Below, one piece after another: positions 17,095-21,425 of a stretch of 64,000 nt of DNA. The first letter of the stretch is position 1. Each line of letters opens with the position of its first letter. This DNA comes from Aeromicrobium flavum (lineage in GTDB: Bacteria; Actinomycetota; Actinomycetes; Propionibacteriales; Nocardioidaceae): assembly GCF_007992115.1 (NCBI RefSeq), contig NZ_BJZQ01000001.1, forward strand, positions 434,001 through 498,000, given 5' to 3'. A program made the translations under genes and the position numbers. Below the pieces are notes generated by a model that did not search any database, was not told the origin of the DNA, and saw only the letters and a list, made by a program, of their open reading frames with translations.

Positions 17095-18528
17095 ATGACC
17101 GACCAGAAGCGCGTTCGGATCGAGCATGACCTGCTGGGCGAGCGCGAGGTGCCGGCGGAGGTCTACTGGGGCGTGCACACCCTGCGCGCCCTGGAGAACT
17201 TCCCGATCACCGACGTGCCCATCGCGATCAGTCCGTACCTGCCGCAGGCGCTCGCCGCGGTGAAGGAGGCGGCGGCCGAGACCAACCACGACCTCGGCCT
17301 GCTGGACGACAAGCAGCACGCCGCGATTGTCCAGGCCTGCCAGGAGATCCGCCGGGGCGAGCTGCACGACCAGTTCGTCGTCGACGTCATCCAGGGCGGC
17401 GCGGGCACCTCGACGAACATGAACGCCAACGAGGTCATCGCCAACCGGGCGCTGGAGATCCTCGGGTACGCGTTCGGCGACTACGAGCACCTGCACCCGA
17501 ACGAGCAGGTCAACCTCAGCCAGTCGACCAACGACGTCTACCCGACGGCGGTCAAGATCGCCTGCATCAAGGCCACCCACGACCTCATCGACGCGATGGG
17601 GGCGCTGGAGGAGGCGTTCGCCGAGAAGGCGGTCGAGTTCCACGACGTGCTGAAGATGGGCCGCACCCAGCTGCAGGACGCCGTCCCGATGACCCTGGGC
17701 CAGGAGTTCGGCACCTACGCGCTGATGATCGCCGAGGACCGCACCCGGCTGCGTGAGGCCGTGATGCTGCTGCACGAGATCAACCTCGGCGCCACGGCGA
17801 TCGGCACCCAGCTCAACGCGCCCGACGGCTACGTCCCCCTGGCGCGCGAGCACCTCGAGCGCATCACGGGCCTGCCGCTGGTGACGGCGGTGGACCTGAT
17901 CGAGGCCACGCAGGACTGCGGCTCGTTCGTGCAGATGTCGGGCGTGCTCAAGCGGGTCGCCGTGAAGCTGTCGAAGATCTGCAACGACCTGCGGCTGCTG
18001 TCGTCGGGCCCGCGCGCGGGACTGGGCGAGATCAACCTGCCGGCGCGTCAGGCGGGCTCGAGCATCATGCCGGGCAAGGTCAATCCGGTGATCCCCGAGG
18101 TCGTCAACCAGGTGGCGTTCCAGATCATCGGGCACGACGTCACGGTGTCGATGGCGGCGGAGTCGGGCCAGCTGCAGCTCAACGCGTTCGAGCCGGTCAT
18201 CTGCTACTCGCTGTCGGCGGGCCTGTTCCGGCTGCGGACCGCGGTGCAGACGCTGACCGAGAACTGCGTCCGGGGCATCACCGCGAACCGCGAGCACCTG
18301 GCCCTCGAGGTCGCGAACTCCATCGGGCTGGTCACGGCGCTGAACCCGTACCTCGGCTACCAGACCGCGACCGAGCTGGCGAAGGAGGCACTCGTCACCG
18401 GACGCGGGGTGGCCGAGCTGGTGCTGGAGAAGGGCCTGCTGCCGCAGGACGAGCTGGAGCGGATCCTGCGCCCCGAGACCCTGGCCCATCTCGGGCCGAA
18501 GCCGGCCGACCGTTCCGGCGGTGTCTGA
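17095..18528 (+). CDS. aspA: Aspartate ammonia-lyase
   Basis: The 477-residue fumarase/aspartase-superfamily enzyme reversibly deaminates aspartate to fumarate and ammonia. The mobile-loop signature GSSIMPGKVNP is present, along with GGAGTSTNMNANEV and NLSQSTNDVYPT. RIEHDLLGEREVP at the start and TNMNANEVIANRALE favour aspartase over fumarase, but the paralogues are close. It stands alone, 36 bases after pheT, with its own ATG. Confidence 0.88.
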   Translation: MTDQKRVRIEHDLLGEREVPAEVYWGVHTLRALENFPITDVPIAISPYLPQALAAVKEAAAETNHDLGLLDDKQHAAIVQACQEIRRGELHDQFVVDVIQGGAGTSTNMNANEVIANRALEILGYAFGDYEHLHPNEQVNLSQSTNDVYPTAVKIACIKATHDLIDAMGALEEAFAEKAVEFHDVLKMGRTQLQDAVPMTLGQEFGTYALMIAEDRTRLREAVMLLHEINLGATAIGTQLNAPDGYVPLAREHLERITGLPLVTAVDLIEATQDCGSFVQMSGVLKRVAVKLSKICNDLRLLSSGPRAGLGEINLPARQAGSSIMPGKVNPVIPEVVNQVAFQIIGHDVTVSMAAESGQLQLNAFEPVICYSLSAGLFRLRTAVQTLTENCVRGITANREHLALEVANSIGLVTALNPYLGYQTATELAKEALVTGRGVAELVLEKGLLPQDELERILRPETLAHLGPKPADRSGGV

Positions 18529-18557: not shown

Positions 18558-18563
18558 TACGCT
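18558..18563 (+). promoter_or_regulatory. -10 element of the cimA leader
   Basis: TACGCT lies 6 bases before the leader-peptide ATG. The leader transcript would therefore begin at, or one base from, the start codon of the leader peptide. Confidence 0.55.
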
Positions 18564-18569
18564 GTGCCC

Positions 18570-18608
18570 ATGAACACGTCGGTGATCATCATTGGAAAGC
18601 GCGTCTGA
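18570..18608 (+). CDS. Isoleucine-rich leader peptide of cimA
   Basis: Twelve codons encode MNTSVIIIGKRV. Three consecutive isoleucine codons (ATC ATC ATT) follow a valine codon. The frame ends inside the first of two mutually close RNA hairpins that precede cimA, an isoleucine-pathway gene. This is the layout of a transcription attenuator: ribosomes stalled at the Ile codons for want of charged tRNA-Ile would favour read-through. It is too short to be found by normal gene calling. Confidence 0.72.
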   Translation: MNTSVIIIGKRV

Positions 18609-18655
18609 ATCTTCATCCCAGACGCGCCGCCTCCCGTACCCGGGGGGCTTTTTTT
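18601..18655 (+). terminator. cimA attenuator: hairpin plus intrinsic terminator
   Basis: A first stem pairs GCGTCTG (18601-18607, overlapping the leader stop codon) with CAGACGC (18620-18626). A second stem pairs GCCTCCC (18629-18635) with GGGGGGC (18642-18648), including one G-T pair. Seven T residues follow. The second stem is a strong intrinsic terminator 41 bases before cimA. An alternative antiterminator fold is expected but was not worked out in full. Confidence 0.78.
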
Positions 18656-18696
18656 GTGACTCGACCACAGGTATCGAACGACAGAGCGGGACGACC

Positions 18697-20298
18697 ATGA
18701 GCACCACCTTCGGGAAGCACGACCCGGCGGACTTCCACGTCTACGACACGACGATGCGCGACGGCGCCCAGCAGGAGGGCCTCAACCTCTCCGTGCAGGA
18801 CAAGCTGGCGATCGCGAAGCACCTCGACGACCTCGGCGTGGGCTACATCGAGGGCGGCTGGCCGGGCTCGAACCCCAAGGACACCGAGTTCTTCGCCCTG
18901 GCCGCCAAGGAGCTCGACCTGCGCCATGCGACGCTGGCCGCGTTCGGCTCGACGCGGCGTGCCGGCGTGGCCGCCGCGGACGACCCGCTGGTGGCGGCGC
19001 TGCGCGACTCGGGCGCCTCGGTCGTGACGGTCGTGGCCAAGAGCCACGACCAGCACGTGACGAAGGCCCTGCGCACCACGCTCGAGGAGAACCTCGCGAT
19101 GGTGCGCGACACCGTGACGCACCTGCGGGCCGAGGGTCAGCGGGTGTTCCTGGACTGCGAGCACTTCTTCAACGGCTTCCTCGACAACCGCGACTACGCC
19201 CTCGAGGTGGTTCGTACGGCGGCCGAGGCCGGCGCCGAGGTGGCGGTGCTGTGCGACACGAACGGCGGGATGCTGCCGCACTGGGTGGGTGACATCGTGG
19301 CCGACGTGCTGGCCTCGACCGGCGCCCGCCTGGGCATCCACGCCCACAACGACACCGGCTGCGCGGTGGCCAACTCGCTGGCGGCGGTGCAGGCTGGCGC
19401 GACCCACGTGCAGGGCTGCATCAACGGGTACGGCGAGCGCACCGGCAACGCCGACCTCGTCACGTGCGTCGCCAACCTGGAGTTCAAGCTGGGCATGAGC
19501 GTGATGCCCGAGGGCGTGCTGGCCGACGCCACGCGCATCTCGCACGCGATCAGCGAGATCACGAACTACCCGCCGGTGGCACGCCAGCCGTACACGGGCG
19601 TCTCGGCGTTCGCGCACAAGGCCGGCCTGCACGCCAGCGCGATCCGCGTGGATCCCGACCTGTACCAGCACATGGACCCGGCGCTGGTCGGCAACGACAT
19701 GCGCCTGCTGGTGTCGGAGATGGCCGGTCGCGCGACGATCGAGCTCAAGGGTCGCGAGCTGGGCTTCGACCTCTCGGGCGACAACGACCTGCTGACGAAG
19801 ATCACCGACCAGGTCAAGAAGATGGAGCAGGACGGCTACACGTTCGAGGCGGCCGACGCCTCGTTCGAGCTGCTGCTGACCGAGTCCGTGACGGGCGAGC
19901 GCCCGGCGTACTTCGACGTGGAGTCGTGGCGCGTCATCGCCGGGTCGGCCGGCGACGGCGGGGCCGAGGCGATCGTCAAGGTCGTCGCCGGCGGCACGCG
20001 CACCGCGGTGGTGGGGGAGGGCAACGGCCCGGTCAACGCCCTCGACCACGCGCTGCGCCAGGCGATCGAGCGGATCTACCCCGACGTGGCGCAGTTCCAC
20101 CTCATCGACTTCCGCGTGCGGATCCTCGACCAGGGTCACGGCACGGACGCCGTGACGCGCGTGCTGATCGAGACGACCGACGGCAAGGACTCGTGGGTGA
20201 CGGTGGGCGTGGGCGCGAACATGATCGAGGCGTCGTTCGAGGCCCTCGTGGACGCGCTGACGTACGGCCTGCGCCTTCACGGGGTGGCGACGCCGTAG
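18697..20298 (+). CDS. cimA: Citramalate synthase
   Basis: The 533-residue enzyme condenses pyruvate with acetyl-CoA to citramalate, the entry to the threonine-independent isoleucine route. The TIM-barrel domain opens with VYDTTMRDGAQQEG, holding the metal Asp and catalytic Arg, and includes EGGWPGSNPKD, GIHAHNDTGCAVAN and the conserved HKAGLHASAI. A C-terminal LeuA-type regulatory domain (about 390-530) is the usual site of isoleucine feedback. EGGWPGSNPKD and the length separate it from LeuA (2-isopropylmalate synthase). Its 3' end overlaps the convergent HNH gene by 22 bases. Confidence 0.92.
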   Translation: MSTTFGKHDPADFHVYDTTMRDGAQQEGLNLSVQDKLAIAKHLDDLGVGYIEGGWPGSNPKDTEFFALAAKELDLRHATLAAFGSTRRAGVAAADDPLVAALRDSGASVVTVVAKSHDQHVTKALRTTLEENLAMVRDTVTHLRAEGQRVFLDCEHFFNGFLDNRDYALEVVRTAAEAGAEVAVLCDTNGGMLPHWVGDIVADVLASTGARLGIHAHNDTGCAVANSLAAVQAGATHVQGCINGYGERTGNADLVTCVANLEFKLGMSVMPEGVLADATRISHAISEITNYPPVARQPYTGVSAFAHKAGLHASAIRVDPDLYQHMDPALVGNDMRLLVSEMAGRATIELKGRELGFDLSGDNDLLTKITDQVKKMEQDGYTFEAADASFELLLTESVTGERPAYFDVESWRVIAGSAGDGGAEAIVKVVAGGTRTAVVGEGNGPVNALDHALRQAIERIYPDVAQFHLIDFRVRILDQGHGTDAVTRVLIETTDGKDSWVTVGVGANMIEASFEALVDALTYGLRLHGVATP

Positions 20299-21425
20299 CT
20301 CATGGGCGCGTCGAGGTGCCGGTCGTCGAGGTGACCGTGCGACTTCATGTTGTGGTGCTTCCGGCAGAGGCACCTGAGGTTGTGAGCGGAGGTTTCGCCG
20401 CCTGACTCGTAGTCCCGGGCGTGGTCGAGATCGGTCTCGGATACCGGGGCCCGGCAGCCGGCCACCCGACAGGTGCCGTCCCTCCAGTGCAGCGCCTGTC
20501 GCAGCGACTCCGTGGGCCGGTAGGCGAGGATCGTGGTGTCCAGGACCTGCCCGACCGGGTCGAGCACGAGTCGCCTGAACACGGTGTGCTCGCTGGCCGC
20601 CAGTTCGCGCACCCACGCCTGGCCGAGCGGCTCACCGTCGCGGGTGACGCCGGGGCCCTCGGTGTAGCCGATGAGGTCGGTGGCGGCGATGCTGATGGCG
20701 ATCTCGGCGCGGATGTCGGTCTCGGTGCCGGTGCACGACGTGAGCCAGTGGGCGAGCAGGTCGGCCTGCTTCTGCTCGCGGGTGCGCCGGTCCTTCTCGC
20801 CGGTCTCGGGATCGACGGCGGGCAGTGCTCGGGCTGCCTTGCGCAGTCGCTCGGCTGCGGCGATCGCGACGCCGGTGGGCAGCAGTGCCGCGAGCCAGCT
20901 GGTGCCGTCGCTGAGGTGCGTGACGGTCACCCGGCGCTGTTCGACGGCCCCGGCGGTCTCCTCTGCGGTCTTCTCAGGCTCGACCCGGGCCCGGAACCGG
21001 CGCAGCCAGGCGCGCAGCTCGGCCACGGTGTGCGCTGCGGCGTACTCGACCACGGACTGCTCGAGCTTGGCCCAGCTGGCGCGCTCGACGAGGCGCTCGG
21101 CGGTGTCGGCGATGGCGCTCGCACGGGCGGCATCGATGTCGCCGACTCCGAACGCGTCCCACACCATCGGGGTGCGCTCGCGCAGGGTCTCAGTCTCGAA
21201 CACGATCGCCCAGACCCGGCGCTCGGTCACCTTGAGGACCTGCGCGACCTCGAGGGTCACCTCGCGCCGGGCCAGTTCCTTGCCCAGGACGATCTCGTCC
21301 GAGCGGTCGATCTCGGCGACCCTCCGCCGATGGTGCGCGGCGACGAACTTCCACTCCTCGAACTCCGCGACGGCACGCGTGCGACGGACGCCGTCGAGCA
21401 TGCGGGCCGTGAGTTCCGAGGTCAT
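20277..21425 (-). CDS. DUF222 / HNH endonuclease-like protein (13E12 family)
   Basis: The 382-residue protein has an N-terminal DUF222 region (about 1-270) and a C-terminal HNH domain. The HNH residues are seen in CRVAGCRAPVSETDLDHARDYESGG and NLRCLCRKHHNMKSHG, with CxxxxC-type metal cysteines. This family exists in many copies in actinobacterial genomes and resembles the mycobacterial 13E12 repeat proteins. Its role, mobile or otherwise, is not settled. Its 3' end lies inside the end of cimA. Confidence 0.88.
   Translation of the reverse strand: MTSELTARMLDGVRRTRAVAEFEEWKFVAAHHRRRVAEIDRSDEIVLGKELARREVTLEVAQVLKVTERRVWAIVFETETLRERTPMVWDAFGVGDIDAARASAIADTAERLVERASWAKLEQSVVEYAAAHTVAELRAWLRRFRARVEPEKTAEETAGAVEQRRVTVTHLSDGTSWLAALLPTGVAIAAAERLRKAARALPAVDPETGEKDRRTREQKQADLLAHWLTSCTGTETDIRAEIAISIAATDLIGYTEGPGVTRDGEPLGQAWVRELAASEHTVFRRLVLDPVGQVLDTTILAYRPTESLRQALHWRDGTCRVAGCRAPVSETDLDHARDYESGGETSAHNLRCLCRKHHNMKSHGHLDDRHLDAPMSYGVATP

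Follow-up and report, generated by a model that had tools for sequence, protein, structure and literature searches.

A predicted isoleucine-responsive leader-peptide attenuator upstream of cimA in Aeromicrobium flavum and related Actinomycetes

Described leader-peptide attenuators and the cimA locus

In Actinobacteria, leader peptides upstream of ilvB and leuS have been known since 2005 (Seliverstov et al., PMC1262725); this and the other published systems are presented here and below from the available parts of the cited papers. In Streptomyces lividans 17% of the transcripts are leaderless, with a -10 hexamer TAnnnT at a mean distance of 6.3 nt from the start, and ilvL (MRTRILVLGKRVG), leuL1, leuL2 and trpL1 were reported as leaderless transcripts (PMC8079986). 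The leuS attenuators of Streptomyces consist of a leucine run, a hairpin and a terminator (leuL2 MRAVRLLLSEPR; PMC1262725, PMC8079986). For ilvBNC of Corynebacterium glutamicum, the start site lies 1 nt from the leader start codon, a Val-to-Ala change abolishes Val-dependent expression, removal of the start codon cuts expression by 80%, and CUU and GUA were named as control codons by the authors (PMC11857589). The leader of Mycobacterium tuberculosis ilvB1 holds an upstream frame rich in branched-chain amino acids (BCAA) with ribosome footprints, followed by a terminator and giving abundant short terminated RNA (PMC13236596).

The locus analysed here lies upstream of cimA in a stretch of 64,000 nucleotides of Aeromicrobium flavum (the window). 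Citramalate synthase, encoded by cimA, opens a threonine-independent route to 2-ketobutyrate and hence to isoleucine. The best reading of the element in front of this gene is that it joins the known actinobacterial ilvB and leuS leader-peptide attenuators, with cimA as a new gene among them. We put the probability that it is an isoleucine-responsive (Ile-tRNA-sensing) transcription attenuator at about 0.8, and it would very probably switch cimA on under isoleucine shortage; the start site, the translation of the leader, the stalling of the ribosome and the effect on cimA are parts of this reading that we infer. With the trp, ilv and leu attenuators of Escherichia coli the element would have the general logic in common, namely sensing by ribosome position, but those have a Shine-Dalgarno-led leader and a clear 2:3 antiterminator, unlike the cimA element.

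The likeness to the actinobacterial systems is closer in some features than in others. As in S. lividans ilvL, a short BCAA-rich leader runs over a hairpin and is followed by a terminator, and the GKRV ending is common to ilvL and the window peptide (PMC8079986). Compared with the actinobacterial ilvB leaders (PMC8079986, PMC1262725), the window differs in having Ile only, and in standing before cimA. The Streptomyces leuS attenuators have a similar layout (PMC1262725, PMC8079986) but combine Leu codons with a tRNA-synthetase gene, whereas here Ile codons precede a biosynthetic gene. C. glutamicum ilvBNC resembles the cimA element in the adjacency of antiterminator and terminator bases and in the position of its start site, which at cimA is a predicted one (PMC11857589). 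In that system and in the ilvB-II motif, however, hairpins compete for a shared GCC and an anti-antiterminator was proposed (PMC11857589, PMC10272879), whereas at cimA no conserved shared bases were found. The M. tuberculosis ilvB1 leader can be likened to the cimA element, known here from sequence, yet it differs in its LVVI codons, in its gene and in its predicted antiterminator (PMC13236596).

A leader before cimA is not described among the matches listed in the open-licence PubMed Central literature. The available text of PMC8079986 contains no occurrence of ‘cima’ or ‘citramalate’, that of PMC1262725 none of ‘citramalate synthase’ or ‘cima’, and that of a term-seq paper on S. griseus (PMC8914203) none of ‘attenuat’, ‘citramalate’ or ‘ilv’.

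Anatomy and conservation of the element

The features of the element are collected in Table 1. A previous sequence-only reading had pointed to a 12-codon frame with three Ile codons and a hairpin over its stop, to a seven-T terminator 41 bases before cimA and to a -10 hexamer 6 bases before the leader ATG, and these assignments are exact to the base. The 41 bases between the T run and the cimA ATG are 18656-18696, and the 127 nt from the leader start to cimA are largely occupied by the leader and two simple hairpins. CimA itself scores 637.7 bits against the TIGR00977 cut-off of 450 (NCBIfam). The cimA frame is convergent with a DUF222 gene on the minus strand (20277-21425), and the ends of the two frames overlap by 22 bases. 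The fold energy of the window leader does not differ significantly from that of shuffled sequences (z -1.63; 11 of 200 shuffles as good), and a sigma-70 promoter scan of the leader, which demands the TTGACA/TATAAT consensus, returned no match. It is by conservation that the element stands above chance.

Table 1. Coordinates of the element and its flanking genes in the window.
Feature	Position	Strand	Basis or remark
aspA	17095-18528	+	gene upstream of the element; ends 100 bases before the terminator stem
-10 hexamer TACGCT	18558-18563	+	read from the sequence; 6 nt 5' of the leader ATG (18570)
Leader peptide MNTSVIIIGKRV, 12 codons, stop TGA 18606-18608	18570-18608	+	sequence; equivalent frames in relatives
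Regulatory codons ATC ATC ATT	18585-18593	+	positions -14/-11/-8, counted from the 5' end of H1
Hairpin H1, 9 bp	18599-18627	+	RNA folding, covariation; runs over the K-R-V codons as well as the stop
Intrinsic terminator: 8-bp stem 18629-18648, T7 18649-18655	18629-18655	+	folding, covariation
cimA, citramalate synthase, gene proposed as regulated (ATG at 18697)	18697-20298	+	TIGR00977 equivalog, LeuA_dimer domain

A search with the CimA protein yielded 80 named loci, most of them with Aeromicrobium or Nocardioides in the title; Mumia, Pimelobacter, Marmoricola and a few relatives from the Intrasporangiaceae/Dermatophilaceae are also represented. In most of them the region 5' of cimA contains a short frame with a run of Ile codons towards its end. 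A -10-like hexamer directly precedes the start codon of this frame, H1 lies near its stop, and a CCTC-type terminator follows. An alignment of 46 sequences, the window included, folds into both hairpins: 11 of the 18 pairs are changed on both sides, consensus pairs are formed in 96.4% of the cells, and none of 500 shuffles reaches any of the five measures. The covariance model built from this alignment (R1) detects the element in 76 of the 80 cimA loci; 45 of the 80 were used in building it, and among the 35 outside the building set the element is found in 31. Conservation of Ile frames and a terminator upstream of cimA, which the sequence-only reading had proposed as a check, thus extends over both close and more distant relatives. 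The four loci in which R1 finds no element (L033, L053, L054 and L061) lack leader, H1 and terminator and have, by eye, a -10-like hexamer 9-10 nt 5' of the cimA ATG; they look as if the attenuator had been naturally deleted.

Across the class, R1 matches 226 of 394 genomes (E <= 0.01), and TIGR00977 is above its cut-off in 304 of the 394. The element is present in 25 of 30 class-wide cimA loci and not found by R1 in the other five; these 30 were picked by cimA score only and are therefore the best-scoring loci, not a random draw. R1 includes the Ile codons, and its class-wide matches therefore favour leaders that have Ile, although its matches at ilvB and leuS show that other codons are tolerated. 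All distinct cimA leaders, with identical sequences counted once, the window included and a 25-nt partial match on the minus strand (L039) dropped, number 123. A T run of at least four follows the terminator stem in 118 of these 123, and the H1 base GCGCG (window 18599-18603) is nearly invariant, with 117 to 123 of the 123 agreeing at each position, in contrast to the covarying upper stem. One genome (G256) has two cimA starts (L148 and L149) with the near-identical Ile leaders MLSTRIIIN and MLSTSIIIN; the first copy is truncated at a contig end, which makes an assembly duplicate possible.

The start codon of the cimA leader is predicted to lie at the 5' end of the mRNA. In 117 of the 123 leaders a.A...T hexamer stands 5-8 nt ahead of the start codon, partly by construction, as start codons were chosen by the best -10 score. 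A leaderless leader peptide had been regarded as an unusual combination in the sequence-only reading. This part does not hold: in the available text of PMC8079986 it is the norm for the S. lividans ilvL, leuL1, leuL2 and trpL1 transcripts, and C. glutamicum ilvBNC is similar (PMC11857589); thus the combination is common in the class.

Register and identity of the regulatory codons

The Ile codons of the cimA leaders are held at a fixed register, 14, 11 and 8 nt before H1. With a tolerance of one base, Ile occupies slot -11 in 113, slot -8 in 114 and slot -14 in 71 of the 123 distinct leaders, and at least two of the three slots are Ile in 114, against an expectation of about 0.003 per leader derived from the Ile frequency of cimA genes. 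The same slot count in the two other frames gives 0 and 2 of 123. A single Ile in the slots is found in nine leaders (e.g. L156 and L147), and 110 of the 123 contain II. The frame from codon to H1 is kept in 119 of the 123 (L155, L133, L130 and L147 lie outside it), while the position of the stop codon relative to H1 varies: 84 leaders have it at -2, 35 from +7 to +23, and 4 at -3 or -5. The window belongs to the second group, with its stop at +7, and yet its Ile codons are exactly at -14, -11 and -8. As the register is constant while the stop moves, the distance between codon and H1 is what is kept.

A rare codon recurs within the slots. ATT makes up 119 of the 335 Ile codons of the cimA leaders, versus 10 of 1295 within cimA genes (first 1500 nt of the cimA matches at the 80 loci), and 103 of the 123 leaders have exactly one ATT within the three slots. 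ATT and ATC are decoded by one and the same tRNA, so that slow wobble decoding or an RNA/DNA constraint may be considered as possible reasons for the single kept ATT. It was suggested early on that leaders might employ rare codons for sensitivity; this view was subsequently judged oversimplified, and selective charging of tRNAs was put forward in its place (available text of PMC1183508). Comparable codons occur in front of the other two genes: by hand count, GTA is at most 2 nt from slot -11 in 17 of 19 ilvB leaders, and CTT is at -8 or -9, the last regulatory slot, in 25 of 26 leuS leaders. In the cimA genes of the 80 loci GTA is 1.0% of the Val and CTT 0.85% of the Leu codons; these are also the two control codons named for C. 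glutamicum ilvBNC (PMC11857589).

These ilvB and leuS leaders were found with R1. Among 150 class-wide R1 matches listed, the downstream gene was resolved for 98 and is cimA in 94 cases, ilvB in three and leuS in one. At 71 of the 150 a cimA place was also listed, and all of these matches are on the same strand, 28-171 nt 5' of the cimA match; of the other 79, 27 were resolved, giving 23 cimA, the three ilvB and the one leuS, the last two genes being identified from open frames and then confirmed by NCBIfam. The leaders of the exceptions read MRIPRLVVG, MHLTRDLVIP and MTSRRDRVVP before ilvB and MRRPLLLT before leuS. The leuS case (L154) is the single listed R1 match of its genome (G380), which is of the same family and has no strong cimA match (best E 9.1e-17).

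The dependence of the codons on the gene was examined at 30 ilvB and 30 leuS loci, in which the element was located by R1 (E <= 0.07) and the frames by the -10 box only. Although made from cimA leaders, R1 finds elements at 45 of these 60 loci (19 of 30 ilvB, 26 of 30 leuS), and at these 26 of the leuS loci (L197-L226) the leaders share the architecture of the cimA element. II is absent from all 19 ilvB and all 26 leuS leaders; LV, VV or VL occurs in 19 of 19 ilvB leaders and LL in 23 of 26 leuS leaders. The ilvB gene of the window's own genome (L084:140-240, C21) is preceded by a second attenuator-like leader, MHHLLLVVH, with a -10 CACACT 6 nt before the ATG, a hairpin and a T run, and R1 scores it at only 20.4 bits. 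The leader codons thus follow the gene, with Ile before cimA, Leu/Val before ilvB and Leu before leuS.

Possible switching mechanism and alternatives

For the attenuator the following course of events may be envisaged. RNA polymerase would begin at the leader ATG or within a few bases of it, and a ribosome would load on the 5'-terminal start codon and translate the leader while H1 and the terminator are being made. With ample Ile-tRNA the ribosome would reach the stop and cover the 5' arm of H1, and transcription would end at the T run. With scarce Ile-tRNA it would pause on the Ile codons. Their constant spacing from H1 would leave most of this hairpin's bases accessible for folding to a large extent; the folded H1, abutting the terminator stem, would then block completion of the terminator, so that cimA is transcribed and isoleucine synthesis rises.

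The leading edge of a ribosome lies about 15 nt from the P-site codon. When the 5' side is masked progressively, the mean energy of the H1 region over the 123 leaders goes from -20.8 kcal/mol (edge at 0) to -15.5 (+2), -6.7 (+5) and -2.0 kcal/mol (+11). In this folding model a ribosome at -14 or -11 would leave H1 intact or nearly so, one at -8 would weaken it and one at the stop would abolish it. Slot -8 is among the two most conserved Ile slots, and pausing there would itself weaken H1 (-6.7 kcal/mol), which speaks against the scheme. The cimA loci that lack the element, the nine leaders with a single Ile in the slots and the S. coelicolor ilvB codon changes that left regulation unaltered (PMC1262725) likewise count against the attenuator reading, whereas the loss of Val-dependent expression in C. 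glutamicum ilvBNC (PMC11857589) is a precedent in its favour.

The element had been supposed to work as amino-acid leader peptides of ilv/leu-type operons do, which would call for a competing antiterminator. Masked folding reveals no such helix: in the window no antiterminator appears and the terminator keeps a probability of 0.99 at all edges from -29 to +25. The 76 named relatives, folded apart from the window, likewise show no conserved antiterminator by this method, with a mean terminator probability of at least 0.90 at edges from -12 to +24. Shared bases between H1 and the terminator are not conserved either: outward extension of H1 adds 0 pairs in 104, 1 in 17 and 2 in 2 of the 123 cimA elements, and 0 in two, 1 in one and 2 in one of the ilvB elements and 3 in one leuS element (n=5). 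A third conserved hairpin was not found in the cimA element. The two hairpins nevertheless abut, the spacing in free energy folding being 0 nt in 65, 1 in 52, 2 in 5 and 3 in 1 of the 123, and it is therefore proposed that H1 hinders the terminator by its position. That H1 acts as such a steric antiterminator is a guess, which we hold tentatively. Without an anti-antiterminator, this model predicts read-through on an untranslated leader, unlike the 80% loss in C. glutamicum (PMC11857589). The complete scheme would be a class-wide switch that relies on the adjacency of hairpins and not on competition for base pairs: one rare codon at a fixed 8-11 nt from H1 slows the ribosome on the leaderless message, the ribosome thereby determines whether H1 folds, and a folded H1 next to the terminator stem obstructs termination by steric means where the RNA leaves the polymerase. 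This single module would be reused before cimA, ilvB and leuS by two to three codon swaps. As a whole, the scheme is possible but somewhat doubtful.

Alternatively, the element could be an Ile-sensing attenuator of the classical kind whose antiterminator was missed because it is long-range, pseudoknotted or lineage-specific. This would oppose only the steric step of the preferred explanation, and we regard it as a real possibility, short of an even chance. The energy model used here is blind to pseudoknots, so that a missed antiterminator is conceivable, and in Corynebacterium the antiterminator has been proposed to form from the terminator and the region of the P1 loop (PMC10272879) or, alternatively, as a hairpin sharing GCC with the terminator base (PMC11857589). 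In one family of leaders (f18, with L121, L141 and relatives) the loops of H1 and of the terminator carry, by eye, GGAC and GTCC respectively, which makes a loop-loop contact possible there, and the leuS element of L154 could lengthen H1 by three pairs. Against this, just 4 of the 76 relatives (L008, L042, L055 and L059) have a terminator probability under 0.5 at any edge, and in these the drop is confined to edges from +9 onwards, where a terminating and not an Ile-stalled ribosome would stand; in the window the probability is never below 0.99. In the relatives, as long as the 3' arm of the terminator has yet to be transcribed, its 5' arm pairs with upstream sequence at a mean probability no higher than 0.32. 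Of the earlier claim that cimA is attenuated by the supply of charged tRNA-Ile, the sensing part is thus supported by the conserved Ile codons and terminator and by the gene-matched codons, while the classical antiterminator is not.

A switch acting at the RNA level and blind to codon identity seems improbable. Leader translation might still play a part in such a device, with termination set, for instance, by a protein or simply by a ribosome being there. It would agree with the codon changes in the S. coelicolor ilvB leader that had no effect on regulation (as told in the available text of PMC1262725), with the H1 base being more constrained than the upper stem at all five positions, and with the failure to find a base-paired antiterminator in the relatives. 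However, the identity of the codons tracks the gene in nearly the same slots, and a codon-blind device would have no need of that.

It is very improbable that the terminator merely ends transcription of aspA and that the short frame is incidental. The gene does lie on the same strand and ends shortly ahead of the terminator stem, but a same-strand upstream relative of aspA (tblastn, E <= 1e-10; 78 of the 80 loci extend 1 kb or more upstream) is present at just 17 of the 80 cimA loci, all 17 titled Aeromicrobium, versus 76 for the element. The element accompanies cimA, and also ilvB and leuS, whatever the upstream gene, and its codons are conserved; the role as aspA end was rejected, as upstream genes change while the element stays.

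That the element is a T-box, a riboswitch or an LEU-type device responding to branched-chain amino acids, of the sort reported ahead of ileS and leuA in Actinobacteria (PMC1262725), is hardly credible and was rejected, as no Rfam covariance model matches the element at gathering score: at that score the window has a single match, to an FMN riboswitch (2642-2775), a permissive search of the region gives weak matches far below gathering (e.g. Phe_leader, 19.1 bits versus 55), four related loci match no Rfam family, and the leader and its hairpins leave little room. The FMN riboswitch, on the plus strand, scores 90.3 bits.

Implications for isoleucine synthesis in the class

If the attenuator reading is right, the set of genes described as controlled by leader peptides, ilvB and leuS, would gain cimA, the gene for the committing step towards isoleucine by way of citramalate. 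Branches of the pathway would then carry their own codon sensors within one genome, Ile at cimA and Leu/Val at ilvB. The combination of a fixed register, a single rare codon and no paired antiterminator may also make the puzzle of the S. coelicolor ilvB codons testable by small mutations.
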